The position numbers and the translations under genes were made by a program. A model generated the notes under the pieces. That model worked only from the letters and a program-made list of their open reading frames with translations, was not told where the DNA came from and searched no databases. A stretch of 64,000 nucleotides of DNA, taken from NCBI GenBank assembly GCA_025060135.1, contig JANXCY010000011.1, positions 1-64,000 of the forward strand, given 5' to 3'. The stretch's first letter is position 1, and every line of letters begins with the position of its first letter. Positions 19,147 through 25,735 of this stretch are shown here, in pieces. This DNA comes from Anaerolineae bacterium (GTDB lineage Bacteria; Chloroflexota; Anaerolineae; B4-G1; DUEL01).

Positions 19147-20916
19147 CTATTGTCCGTTGGCCTCAGTCCCCATAAAGAACCGTACGATTGCTTGCCGCAG
19201 GAAGTTCTCCTCCAACCTTCCCAGCGGCGAGGGGGTCTCCAGGATGCGGCGGGGAATGCGCAACTGGGCCGGGTCAAACCCCTCACGGGTCTTGAAGGCG
19301 TGCTTGCGAGTCAGCGTCTCCGCGCCAATCCGGGCCAGGTCGTCGGCAGAGCGGAGTATGCCCGCCACCGCCAGCGCCCGCTGGACGATCTCCGGTGTGT
19401 AGACCCCGCGCGCGAAGAAGCAGACGACCAGGCTCGCCAGCACCTGGCGCCAGCGCTCCTCCTCCAGTAATGTCTCCGCCACGCCCTCCGGTGTCAATGC
19501 TTCCCCTTTCGCCGCCGCGCGCTGGTCCAGGCTGTATCCGGCGCTATCCAGGTGGCTGTGCCGCGCACCGGTCAGATAGGTCAGATGGCAGGCTGGGCCG
19601 GTGTGGTAACCGGGCATCTCGTTGCCGCCGAAGGCCAGCGCAAAGTCGGCACCGCCGTAGAGCGACGCGGCATGCTCCACCCCCCGCCCCAGGGCCTGGT
19701 AGAAATCGTTGGGCGGGTCCACAATGCGCCCCACCGCCCGGATGTAGGTCTCCCAGTCCCCCCAGGTTAGGGTCAGGCCGTCCGTCTCCTTCAGCGAAAT
19801 CAGTCCCCGCTCCATGGCCTCTGTCGCCCAGGCCAGGACGACGCCCGCGCTCATCACGTCCAGCCCCACCGCCTCCACTTCATCCAGCACCTGCAACATT
19901 CCCGCGACGTCGGCAATCCCCAACATGGAGCCGACGGCGTAGATGGGTTCGTGGTCGTAGCCGACCATGACCGTCTTGTAGAAGTACGGGTCGTTGGGAT
20001 AGGGGATGCGCAGCGCGGCCAGGTGGATGCAGGCGACAGGGCAGTGCGCGCAGGCCACCCGGCGGCCCAGGTAGTTCCGGGCCAGGTTCTCCCCGGAGAT
20101 GGCCTCCGCCCCCTCAAACCGGCCCGATCGGAGGTTGCGGGTGGGGAGCGCGCCGATGGCGTCCAGCGGGAGGACGTTCATGGCGGTCCCCAGTTCGTGG
20201 TACTTTTGCATCAGGGGGGAGTCGGTCGCGGCCTGGAAGATCGCGTCGTAGGCCTCCCGGTAGGCTCTCCGGTCGGCGACAGGGAGCGCGCGCCGCCCGG
20301 AGACGACCAGCGCCTTTAACTTTTTGCTCCCGAAGACGGCGCCCAGGCCCAGCCGCCCGAAGTGGCGATAGGTCTCGGTAACCACGCAGGCGTAGGTAAC
20401 GCCCCGCTCCCCGGCCCGCCCGATGCGCATGATGGTGCGGACTCCCGCCCCGCGCTCCCGCTCACGGATGACCCGCCCGACGGTTGCGCTGGAGCGTAGT
20501 CCCCACAGGGCCGAAGCGTCCCGGAAATAGACGCTATCGTCCTCCACGACGACGTAGACGGGGGTGGGACTGGCGCCCCGGAGGATTATCGCGCCGTACC
20601 CGGCCATACGGATAGCGACGGCGGAGCGGCCTCCGGCGTGGCTCTCGCCCAGGTTGCCAGTGTGGGGGGACTGGAACATCGCCACCGTCTTGGAGGCCAT
20701 CGGGAAAAGCCCCACCAGCGGCCCGACGGCCAGGATGACGGGGTTCTCCGGTCCCAACGGGTCGGCGCCGGGCGGGCATTCCTCCTCCAGCAGGCGAATG
20801 GCGACGCCCGCGCCGCCCAGGCCGTCCTCAAAGAGGTCAGGGCGTTCCGCCACCCAGAAGCGGCGACGGGAGAGGTCAATGTAGAGAATCCGAGGGAGGG
20901 GGTCATGGGGGAGCAT
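19147..20916 (-). CDS. Aldehyde:ferredoxin oxidoreductase (tungsten-type)
   Basis: The 589-residue enzyme belongs to the AOR family, which oxidises aldehydes to acids with a tungsten- or molybdenum-bispyranopterin and one [4Fe-4S] cluster. It has the N-terminal RILYIDLSRR, GGRSAVAIRMAGYGAI and GRLGLGAVFGSKKLKAL pterin-contact motifs, and the cluster motif CAHCPVAC (289-296). The fourth cysteine is probably in VVCFFARGVYTPE. Length matches the family. Its start overlaps the end of the 16-Cys ferredoxin by 14 bp, so the two form an operon and very likely a complex. The aldehyde cannot be named. Confidence 0.92.
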   Translation of the reverse strand: MLPHDPLPRILYIDLSRRRFWVAERPDLFEDGLGGAGVAIRLLEEECPPGADPLGPENPVILAVGPLVGLFPMASKTVAMFQSPHTGNLGESHAGGRSAVAIRMAGYGAIILRGASPTPVYVVVEDDSVYFRDASALWGLRSSATVGRVIRERERGAGVRTIMRIGRAGERGVTYACVVTETYRHFGRLGLGAVFGSKKLKALVVSGRRALPVADRRAYREAYDAIFQAATDSPLMQKYHELGTAMNVLPLDAIGALPTRNLRSGRFEGAEAISGENLARNYLGRRVACAHCPVACIHLAALRIPYPNDPYFYKTVMVGYDHEPIYAVGSMLGIADVAGMLQVLDEVEAVGLDVMSAGVVLAWATEAMERGLISLKETDGLTLTWGDWETYIRAVGRIVDPPNDFYQALGRGVEHAASLYGGADFALAFGGNEMPGYHTGPACHLTYLTGARHSHLDSAGYSLDQRAAAKGEALTPEGVAETLLEEERWRQVLASLVVCFFARGVYTPEIVQRALAVAGILRSADDLARIGAETLTRKHAFKTREGFDPAQLRIPRRILETPSPLGRLEENFLRQAIVRFFMGTEANGQ

Positions 20917-21385
20917 GGGGGGCCTCCTTCCTCACCCCACCCCCGGCGGCTTCGCCGTCCCTCCCTCTAATGGAGGGGGGAGGGGTGAGGTCTTCCAGCG
21001 CCAGGACTTCATAGGGGCAGTAGCGGGCGCAGTAGCCGCAGTAGACGCAAATCTGGGGCTTGTTCTGGGCCCGGTCCCAGAAGACGGCGCCGAAGGGGCA
21101 GGCTTCGGCGCAGTTGCCACAGCCGATGCAGAGGTCAGCCCGCAGGCGAACCCCGCCCGGGGGCCGGAGGAGCAGAGCATCGGTGGGGCAGACCCGCGCG
21201 CAGGGCGGGTCGGGGCATGCCCGGCAGACCACGACGACGAAGCCGCGCCGGATGCCCCCGGCGGAGCGGACGCCGATGCAGGCACCCGCCAGGCCGCCCT
21301 CTCCCAACCGGCGCGCGCAGGCGAACATGCAGGATTGACAGCCGACACAGCGGTCAACATCTATGACGGAGAGGCGCTTTGCCAT
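20903..21385 (-). CDS. Four-cluster ferredoxin subunit of the aldehyde oxidoreductase
   Basis: The 160-residue protein contains four cysteine quartets: CVGCQSCMFAC, CRACPDPPCARVC, CIGCGNCAEAC and CVYCGYCARYC, enough for four [4Fe-4S] clusters. It resembles the HycB/DmsB electron-transfer type and the AorA polyferredoxin partner known from Aromatoleum-type AOR complexes. It overlaps the oxidoreductase gene and should carry electrons from the active site to a downstream acceptor. A third FAD/NADH subunit like AorC is not present next to it. The last 25 residues are Gly/Pro-rich and low in conservation. Confidence 0.88.
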   Translation of the reverse strand: MAKRLSVIDVDRCVGCQSCMFACARRLGEGGLAGACIGVRSAGGIRRGFVVVVCRACPDPPCARVCPTDALLLRPPGGVRLRADLCIGCGNCAEACPFGAVFWDRAQNKPQICVYCGYCARYCPYEVLALEDLTPPPSIRGRDGEAAGGGVRKEAPHAPP

Positions 21386-22525: not shown

Positions 22526-25500
22526 TTACCGCCGGGGGAAGCGCTCCAGCACTTTCCCCGGTGTCGCCATCGCCACCCGGTCGTCCAGTTCCAGTTCTTC
22601 CAGGGGTTTCTCCGCGGGGGCTTGGGAGACGGCGAAGACGAAGAGGTCCTCCCCCGGTTCCGCGAAGCGTCGGTCCACGTAGGCCATTCCCACCGGGTAT
22701 CCCTCCGTATCCATTGCGCAGGAGGTTACCTGCCCGATCACCCGACCATGCCGGTCCGTCACCCGGTCGCCCGGGTTGGGGACGGGCACGCCTTTTTCGG
22801 AGAGCCGGAAACGGATGATGGTCATCTTTCGCTGGGCCGCGTGGCGGCGGAACGCTTCTCGTCCGATGAAGAAAGGTTTATAGAGTTTGACGTATCCCTC
22901 CAGTCCAGCCTCATCGGGCCGGATGTCCAGGGGCCCGGCCAGTTCATGGCCGTAGAGGGGAAGGCCCGCCTCAATGCGGAGCGAATCGCGCGCCGCCAGG
23001 CCGACCGGACGTAATCCCTTCGGTGCGCCGTAGCGGAGCAGGAGGTCCCAGAGCAGAGGCGCCCACTCCGGGTGGACGAAGAGTTCAAAGCCCATGGTTT
23101 CGCCGGTGTAGCCAGTGCGGGCGATGATGAGGTCAAAGATGCCGCCGGGGGCCTCGGGCCAGGGCCAGCGGACCTCGATCAGTTCTGCCCGTTGCATGCC
23201 CAGGATTCGGCCGCGGATTTCGTCTGCGGCGGGGCCCCGGGGGCTGGCATCCAGCCAGGCCAGCAGGATATCGCGGGCGCGCGGCCCCTGCAGGGCTAGG
23301 TTCACTCGCCAGAGATGCTCCTGGTCGGGTGCGCGCAGGTTCACCAGTTCGGCTCGAAAGGGCGACCGGGCCCAGGGCCGGTCCGGGTCTATGAGGACGG
23401 TTCCCTCGTTCACTGCGTTCAACCAGGCCCAGTCTCTGGCGGTGTTGGCCGCATTGACCACCAGCATGTACCGCCCCGGCGCGCGCATGTAGACCATAAG
23501 GTCGTCTACCACGCGCCCTTCGGGGTCCAGGAGGAAGCCGTAGTGGGATTGTCCCGGCCGGAGGTGGCTGACGTCGTTGGTGCTCACCAGGTCCAGGAAA
23601 GCGGCGGCGTGGGGGCCGGAAACCTCAAAGATGCCCATGTGGCCCACGTCGAAGAGCCCGGCCGCGCCCCGGACGGCGCGGTGCTCGTCCAGGACGGGGC
23701 CGTAGCGCAGGGGCATCTCCCATCCGGCGAAGGGGACGAAGTGGGCACCCAGGCGCGCGTGGGCCTCGTAGAGGGGGGTGCGCCGCAGAGGTTCCTCCGG
23801 GGGTTCCCACTCAAAGGGCGGGAGCGGCTCGCCTCGGGGCTCGGCTGCCCGATGCGCGGAAAGGCCCACGTAGTACGGCTTGGCGGAAAGCGGCGGTGTA
23901 AAGGGTTCACTGGACAGGAAGCCATCCGGTGGGGCGATGGACCCCAGATTGCGGACAATCACCGGCCCGGGTAGTTTGGCCTGTAGGTCCTGAGGGTCAA
24001 AGAGGACGTAGCCATCGGAAAGGGCCCGCAGCCAGGCCAGGACCCGCTGGAAGGCCGTCGCGGGCACTGCTAATCGGTACCGCTGATAGCCGAAGTTGGG
24101 GCGGGAGACGGCGCCCCGGGCCATTATCCGTCCGTCGGCTTCCAGCAGCGTTGCCGGGCGCCAGGTGTCCGGCGGCAGGTGGTTGACGTCTTCTACCAGG
24201 ACATGGTTGAGAAAGGCCAGCGTCGCGTTCCCCTCCAGTTCGATCAGGCCCCAATCGCCTGCCGGGGGGTGGGTATCGGTGAGCAGACAGTGGTGGGGGT
24301 AGCCAGTACAGTGGACCTCGTAATCCACCTTTGCCCGGGCAGCGAGGTCAGCGACGGCCAGGCGAGCTTCTTCCAGCGCGTCAAACTCCACCTTGCCCCG
24401 GTGGATGGGCCCCTGGCGACCCGGGTAGGTGTAGGGCCGGATGGATGTCAGGGTTCGGGCAATGAGGCGGGCCAGTTCGGCCATCTCCCGCTCTCCCAGC
24501 CCCCGCTGGGTAACCCAGGGCGTGCCCAGCCGGATGCCGCTGGCCAGCGCCGGGGAGGGGTCGCCTGGAAGGGTGTTGCGGTTGCAGACGATGCCCACCA
24601 GGTCCAGCACGCGGGCGGCGGTATCACCCAGGAGCGGCTCGCCGAAGGGTCCCCGGACGGTCTTGCAGTCGACTACCAGCAGGTGGGAGTCGGTACCACC
24701 GTAGGCGACGCGGAGTCCCTCCTCGGTGAGCGCGCGGGCCAGGGCCTTGGCGTTGGCGATGATCTGATGCTGAAGACGACGGAATTTCTCTGTCCGGGCC
24801 AGCCGGAAGGCCACTGCCATGGCGACAAATTTGTTGACATGGGGCCCACCCTGCAGGCCGGGGAAGACGGCGTGGTCAATCCGGCGGGCGAGGGTCGGGT
24901 CGGTGGTCAGAATGCAGGCACCGCGCGGCCCGCAGAGGGTTTTATGGGTGGTGAAGGTGATGACGTGAGCGTAGCCCAGCGGGTTGGGATAGGCTCCGGC
25001 GGCCACCATCCCAGCCACGTGCGCGATGTCGGCCAGCAGGTAGGCGCCTACCCGGTCGGCAATCTGGCGGAATTGGGCCCAATCCGGGATGCGCGGGTAG
25101 GAAGTGTACCCAGCGACGATGATCCGGGGACGGTGCTCCAGGGCCAGGGCCTCTACTTGGTCGTAATCTATCAGTTCGGTGTGGGGGTCCACGCCGTAGA
25201 AGACGGCCCGGTAGCGCTGGCCGGAGACGTTGGCGGGGGCACCATGGGTGAGGTGGCCACCGTGAGTCAGGTCCATTCCCATGATGACATCACCTGGCTT
25301 GAGGAGCGCCTCGTAGACCGCGATGTTGGCCGGCGCGCCGGAGAGGGGCTGGACGTTGACGTAAATGCGGTCGGCAGGGATCGTCTCAGTGGCAAAGGCC
25401 TCGGCGCAACGGCGACGGGCCAACGCCTCGGCGACATCGGCGTACTCCACGCCCATGTAGTAGCGCAGGTCGCCGTAGCGCCGATAGAAGGCCATATGCG

Positions 25501-25735
25501 CCTCGTAGTCTAAAATCTGCTCCTCCGTCATCCAGCGGGTTTCAGGGAGAGGGTAGCCCTCGGCGTAAATATTGGTGAAAACCGACCCCAGCGCCTCTCG
25601 CACAGCGCGCGGGGTGTAACTTTCGGAAGGAATCATAATCAGTTTCCGGGCCTGTCGCTCTTCTTCCAGATCAATCAGATGGGCAACAGCCGGGTCCAGT
25701 TCGTCCAGAGGTTCGGGGAAGAGAAAATCATTCAT
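22526..25735 (-). CDS. Serine hydroxymethyltransferase-aminomethyltransferase fusion
   Basis: The 1069-residue protein joins two one-carbon enzymes. Residues 1-470 are a GlyA-type SHMT with the PLP lysine in THKTLCGPRG (Lys265). Residues 655-1069 are a GcvT-type aminomethyltransferase with VGHMGIFEVSGPHAAAF, a tetrahydrofolate-binding core and the C-terminal barrel (GKVLE-type end). Between them, residues 490-600 resemble a degenerate second GcvT N-terminal module: LIELEGNATLAFLNHVLVEDV mirrors IFEVSGPHAAAFLDLVSTNDV (first 20 residues of each shown elsewhere as shorter motifs). GGAGGACCG before the ATG at 25735 fixes the start. Both halves act on tetrahydrofolate and glycine/serine, so channelling of methylene-THF is plausible. 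gcvP and gcvH are not nearby. Confidence 0.92.
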   Translation of the reverse strand: MNDFLFPEPLDELDPAVAHLIDLEEERQARKLIMIPSESYTPRAVREALGSVFTNIYAEGYPLPETRWMTEEQILDYEAHMAFYRRYGDLRYYMGVEYADVAEALARRRCAEAFATETIPADRIYVNVQPLSGAPANIAVYEALLKPGDVIMGMDLTHGGHLTHGAPANVSGQRYRAVFYGVDPHTELIDYDQVEALALEHRPRIIVAGYTSYPRIPDWAQFRQIADRVGAYLLADIAHVAGMVAAGAYPNPLGYAHVITFTTHKTLCGPRGACILTTDPTLARRIDHAVFPGLQGGPHVNKFVAMAVAFRLARTEKFRRLQHQIIANAKALARALTEEGLRVAYGGTDSHLLVVDCKTVRGPFGEPLLGDTAARVLDLVGIVCNRNTLPGDPSPALASGIRLGTPWVTQRGLGEREMAELARLIARTLTSIRPYTYPGRQGPIHRGKVEFDALEEARLAVADLAARAKVDYEVHCTGYPHHCLLTDTHPPAGDWGLIELEGNATLAFLNHVLVEDVNHLPPDTWRPATLLEADGRIMARGAVSRPNFGYQRYRLAVPATAFQRVLAWLRALSDGYVLFDPQDLQAKLPGPVIVRNLGSIAPPDGFLSSEPFTPPLSAKPYYVGLSAHRAAEPRGEPLPPFEWEPPEEPLRRTPLYEAHARLGAHFVPFAGWEMPLRYGPVLDEHRAVRGAAGLFDVGHMGIFEVSGPHAAAFLDLVSTNDVSHLRPGQSHYGFLLDPEGRVVDDLMVYMRAPGRYMLVVNAANTARDWAWLNAVNEGTVLIDPDRPWARSPFRAELVNLRAPDQEHLWRVNLALQGPRARDILLAWLDASPRGPAADEIRGRILGMQRAELIEVRWPWPEAPGGIFDLIIARTGYTGETMGFELFVHPEWAPLLWDLLLRYGAPKGLRPVGLAARDSLRIEAGLPLYGHELAGPLDIRPDEAGLEGYVKLYKPFFIGREAFRRHAAQRKMTIIRFRLSEKGVPVPNPGDRVTDRHGRVIGQVTSCAMDTEGYPVGMAYVDRRFAEPGEDLFVFAVSQAPAEKPLEELELDDRVAMATPGKVLERFPRR

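Follow-up and report, generated by a model that had tools for sequence, protein, structure and literature searches.

A fused SHMT-GcvT protein of Chloroflexota with a middle module that probably derives from a duplicated GcvT folate domain

Introduction

GcvT-type folate domains are parts of several larger proteins. In sarcosine oxidase alpha, dimethylglycine oxidase/dehydrogenase and TMAO demethylase, a domain of this type forms the end of an enzyme passing one-carbon units on to THF, and in MnmE a half-domain related to one GcvT half binds folate at the dimer interface (PMC2749940). Analyzing 64,000 nucleotides of an Anaerolineae bacterium (GCA_025060135.1, contig JANXCY010000011.1, positions 1 to 64,000; this whole stretch is called the window), we found a gene that joins SHMT to GcvT, with a worn GcvT-like module between the two enzymes. 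A search of the literature outside subscription journals found no published description of an SHMT-GcvT fusion. The fusion with its vestigial duplicate is a new arrangement of known enzyme families.

Results

The window protein is laid out as SHMT (residues 1-470), middle (475-645) and GcvT (648-1069). Both enzyme domains were identified by Pfam, NCBIfam and PDB searches within one open frame, with the following features:

22526..25735 (-): whole fusion gene, a single uninterrupted frame of 1069 aa plus stop, with full-length homologues in dozens of genomes
24326..25735 (-): SHMT domain, residues 1-470 (PF00464, 2.4e-128; NF000586)
24941..24943 (-): K265, equivalent by residue mapping to the PLP lysine K226 of B. 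stearothermophilus SHMT
22529..23794 (-): GcvT (aminomethyltransferase) domain, residues 648-1069 (PF01571, 5.1e-77; PF08669; TIGR00528)
23501..23503 (-): D745, catalytic Asp (E. coli GcvT D97), invariant in 48 homologues

These assignments confirm an earlier note on this DNA, made from the letters and a list of open reading frames, which had described an SHMT-GcvT fusion with SHMT in its first 470 residues and GcvT at its C-terminal end. The SHMT domain exceeds the cut-offs of PF00464 (428.6 bits against 27) and NF000586 (450.2 bits against 335), and the mapped active-site residues of the B. stearothermophilus enzyme are all intact, with Y51, E53, Y60/Y61 and K226 corresponding to Y57, E59, Y92/Y93 and K265; K265, E59, Y57 and Y93 are invariant among 48 homologues. 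An insertion of about 28 residues (about 63-90; window 25466-25549, reverse strand) lies between the AEGYP and RYY motifs and adjoins the active-site residues E59 and Y92/Y93; it is conserved in the fusions and missing in B. stearothermophilus SHMT. The C-terminal domain scores 262.5 bits against the TIGR00528 equivalog (cut-off 235.85), and Asp97 of E. coli GcvT, the residue altered in PDB 3a8k, maps to D745.

A frameshifted or assembly join of two genes, which the earlier note had raised as the danger to its reading, is ruled out. The frame is open in the window and in its relatives, full-length homologues in close relatives are 89-91% identical, and fusion frames of 1045-1313 aa recur in dozens of genomes, including the single-contig G056 and G062, so the fusion is genuine. 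AlphaFold models the full-length fusion with a pLDDT of 91 and a pTM of 0.88. An open frame of 1426 aa (G078:C1:360241-360690) has the same SHMT/middle match, the usual length in its family being 1144 aa.

The middle is homologous to the first half of GcvT and has its own conserved motifs:

23936..24262 (-): middle half-module, residues 492-600, homologous to the GcvT first half (window residues 697-800)
24293..24301 (-): Y479-P480-H481, near-invariant motif opening the middle (homologue alignment)
24116..24118 (-): R540, at the catalytic-Asp position, which is Asp in 8/8 full-length middles
24011..24034 (-): WLRALSDG, residues 568-575, conserved motif specific to the middle, with W568 and D574 invariant
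23864..23881 (-): KPYYVG, residues 619-624, remnant of the GcvT terminal KPFFIG by alignment

Residues 492-594 align at 35% identity with residues 697-797 in the GcvT part of the protein (E 2.8e-9; six-frame genome search with residues 436-650, which also matches the second fusion gene of the same genome), and the pair ELEGNATLAFLNHVLVEDV and EVSGPHAAAFLDLVSTNDV quoted in the earlier note is aligned exactly there. PF01571 recognizes the middle at 7e-6, hhalign of the middle with the protein's own GcvT module gives P 1.4e-18 (prob. 99.1; SHMT control 0.34), and a PDB search with a profile built from 49 middles retrieves aminomethyltransferases and related proteins (3.4e-10 for the best stretch). 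In the AlphaFold model of residues 458-666 (pLDDT 85.6), strands and helices follow one another as in one GcvT half (beta-alpha-beta-beta-beta-alpha-beta); GcvT is the best PDB fold match (1yx2, Foldseek 4.1e-7), with further matches to sarcosine oxidase, DMGDH, YgfZ and Iba57, and to MnmE lower down. An unrelated fold is ruled out by this model and its Foldseek matches to GcvT.

With GcvT the best match in profile alignment and structure prediction alike, the worn GcvT domain that had been proposed for residues 490-600 is upheld, and only its extent needs correction: since KPYYVG is the leftover of the GcvT terminal motif, the remnant reaches about residue 630. The window middle thus keeps the first ferredoxin-like half of GcvT and the terminal KPYxxG motif, and the second half is gone. 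Because R540 replaces the catalytic Asp and the second half is deleted, it is not a functional T-protein, and only two parts of the chain have intact active sites, contrary to the three-part folate enzyme first envisaged.

Fuller middles occur in other fusions. Seven of them (L050, L051, L053-L056 and L083) match the GcvT module at 6e-20 to 1e-35, that of L090 does so at 6e-66 over module positions 1-304, and PF01571 matches full-length middles down to 2.7e-44. All eight full-length middles form a single clade (support 100/100) and have the catalytic Asp, against 2 of 58 truncated middles; they nevertheless lack many family-conserved residues. The segment that holds an insertion of about 20 residues has a median length of 51 in C-terminal modules, 51 in full-length middles and 31 in ten ordinary GcvTs, and this insertion, common to the first two and missing from ordinary GcvTs, is the strongest sign of a duplication inside this lineage. 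Descent of the middle from a second GcvT folate domain, duplicated within the lineage, is well supported by these sequence comparisons; profiles, fold, common insertion, trees and fuller intermediates agree with the degenerate second module and ancient duplication suggested earlier.

A tree of the SHMT and GcvT parts splits into two old clades. Most full-length middles belong to clade I; clade II includes the window protein, and all its middles are truncated. The window genome has one fusion gene per clade, its second gene (copy B, L047) being truncated within clade I, and the truncated middle of L057 stands beside the full-length L050. An independent middle-only tree agrees, placing the copy-B middles among the clade-I full-length middles (97/89) and the window clade apart (100/97). 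As these middles fall separately, a single truncation event is disfavoured. With the full module as the ancestral state, no fewer than three truncations (clade II, copy B and L057) are required, and L091, f56 and L125, whose tree placement is unstable, are possible further cases. Because the fusion tree has no settled root, homology is the basis for reading the change as one from full-length to truncated. Among the homologues, the second module grades from a near-complete enzyme domain down to a non-catalytic half, the independent truncations ending at nearly equal size.

A survey of sampled Chloroflexota genomes, the check on distribution that the earlier note had proposed, found the fusion or its split form in 37 of 41 genomes of the class (counted from the listing; a few frames are cut at contig ends) and likewise in other Chloroflexota families (f32, f33, f38, f49, f56 and one of f39). 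In the window genome (95% complete), the two fusions hold every SHMT and GCV_T match, with no separate glyA or gcvT found in these searches, and gcvPA, gcvPB and gcvH are encoded, so the partners of the T-protein are present. A gcvH-gcvPA-gcvPB cluster adjoins the fusion in G007 and lies about 4 kb away in G009. Copy B (L047:5974-9153, forward strand; G000:C33) is anciently diverged, being 54% identical, and has a truncated middle; copies A and B are near each other in G011:C80 and G025:C201, in tandem in G011.

In family f6, the gene is split in four of five genomes, the half-module ending the SHMT protein and GcvT forming a separate gene. The split loci are L095 and L097 (G343:C6, G202:C25) and L102/L121 and L052/L122 (G303, G050), with the halves side by side in two of the genomes and on separate contigs in the other two.

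Directly downstream of the fusion (window 19147-21385, reverse strand) lies an aldehyde ferredoxin oxidoreductase (AOR) gene with a 4Fe-4S ferredoxin-like gene upstream of it; AOR keeps this place in L033 and L037. In a related genome, a Mur ligase-alanine racemase fusion of 1075 aa (L040:11845-15069, forward strand) is the neighbour of the SHMT-GcvT fusion. A liv amino-acid transporter precedes the fusion gene in the window; no liv genes were seen in the examined fusion flanks of relatives, and an operon link with liv was therefore given no weight. No one-carbon genes are among the neighbours of copy B.

Discussion

Our analyses suggest that the fusion is probably a bifunctional SHMT/T-protein whose middle is a folded, selected, non-catalytic half-module from a duplicated GcvT, likely packing on SHMT. 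One chain would supply both activities to a cell without separate glyA or gcvT. On alignments and trees, the middle stems from a second GcvT folate domain, duplicated in the lineage, that lost its catalytic Asp and, independently in several lineages, its second half; what remains would most likely pack on SHMT and carry the T-protein domain. We infer that the middle is a structural module of the SHMT side, in support of which the half-module stays on SHMT in four split genomes. Together with GcvH/GcvP, the protein could interconvert glycine and serine via methylene-THF that a single chain both produces and consumes, and the fusion is compatible with methylene-THF channelling.

It is unlikely that the middle is a spacer only, that is, duplication debris without a binding or packing role of its own, kept since its deletion would misplace both enzymes. 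The absence of the catalytic Asp and of the second half would fit a spacer, as would the middle being barely detectable in some families and its rate of change: within the family, pairwise dN/dS (NG86) is 0.16-0.33 for the middle, 0.06-0.13 for SHMT and 0.08-0.16 for GcvT, and the middle changes at two to three times the rate of the enzymes. However, these values are far below 1, indicating purifying selection, W568 and D574 are invariant, and the YPH, WLRxLSDG and KPxxxG motifs are nearly so; the middle is therefore not free debris. It also has a confident fold in AlphaFold models and is retained at the SHMT end in the split genes, which have no use for a spacer.

Origin and binding raise further alternatives. 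The middle might bind folate or H-protein, regulating the enzyme or docking substrate in a role that outlived catalysis; it does derive from a folate-binding, H-protein-docking domain, full-length middles retain the catalytic Asp, and the MnmE half-domain offers a folate-binding precedent (PMC2749940). We regard this as very improbable, given that the half completing the pocket in GcvT is missing from truncated middles and even full-length ones have lost many family-conserved residues. That the middle was instead acquired as a linker from another folate-fold family, YgfZ or TrmE, is scarcely credible. The half-module resembles TrmE_N in size, YgfZ and MnmE are among the weaker fold matches and L055 has a weak YgfZ match, but GcvT models are by far the best matches of full-length middles, which have the lineage's own insertion in common with the C-terminal module.

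Truncation itself may, by analogy, have been adaptive, although we think this improbable: half-modules could pair in the SHMT dimer like MnmE N-domains, rebuilding a pseudo-GcvT hub or folate site. If so, the pairs would keep the two T-protein domains close to the active sites of SHMT and act as a hand-over device for methylene-THF that evolved several times from a duplicated GcvT. The fusion is a natural experiment on whether linking SHMT with the T-protein ties the cleavage of glycine to the synthesis of serine. Such coupling is of interest for one-carbon and reductive glycine pathways, here in bacteria without separate backup enzymes.

Compared to GlyA (NF000586/PRK00011, PF00464), the window SHMT has the entire domain, the PLP lysine and the remaining active-site residues and passes the subfamily cut-off, but it is fused to GcvT modules and has about 28 extra residues ahead of the conserved RYY motif. 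Likewise, the C-terminal domain resembles ordinary GcvT (TIGR00528, PF01571 plus PF08669) in passing the equivalog cut-off and retaining the catalytic Asp, and differs in lying inside a fusion and in an insertion of about 20 residues missing from ten ordinary Chloroflexota GcvTs. Whereas the sarcosine oxidase, dimethylglycine and TMAO enzymes have one GcvT-type domain behind a redox or demethylase part, the window protein combines SHMT with two GcvT-type modules, one of them degenerate. As in MnmE/TrmE, a single GcvT-type half serves as a module of a larger protein; that of MnmE is N-terminal, dimeric and folate-binding (PMC2749940), whereas the window middle matches GcvT far better.
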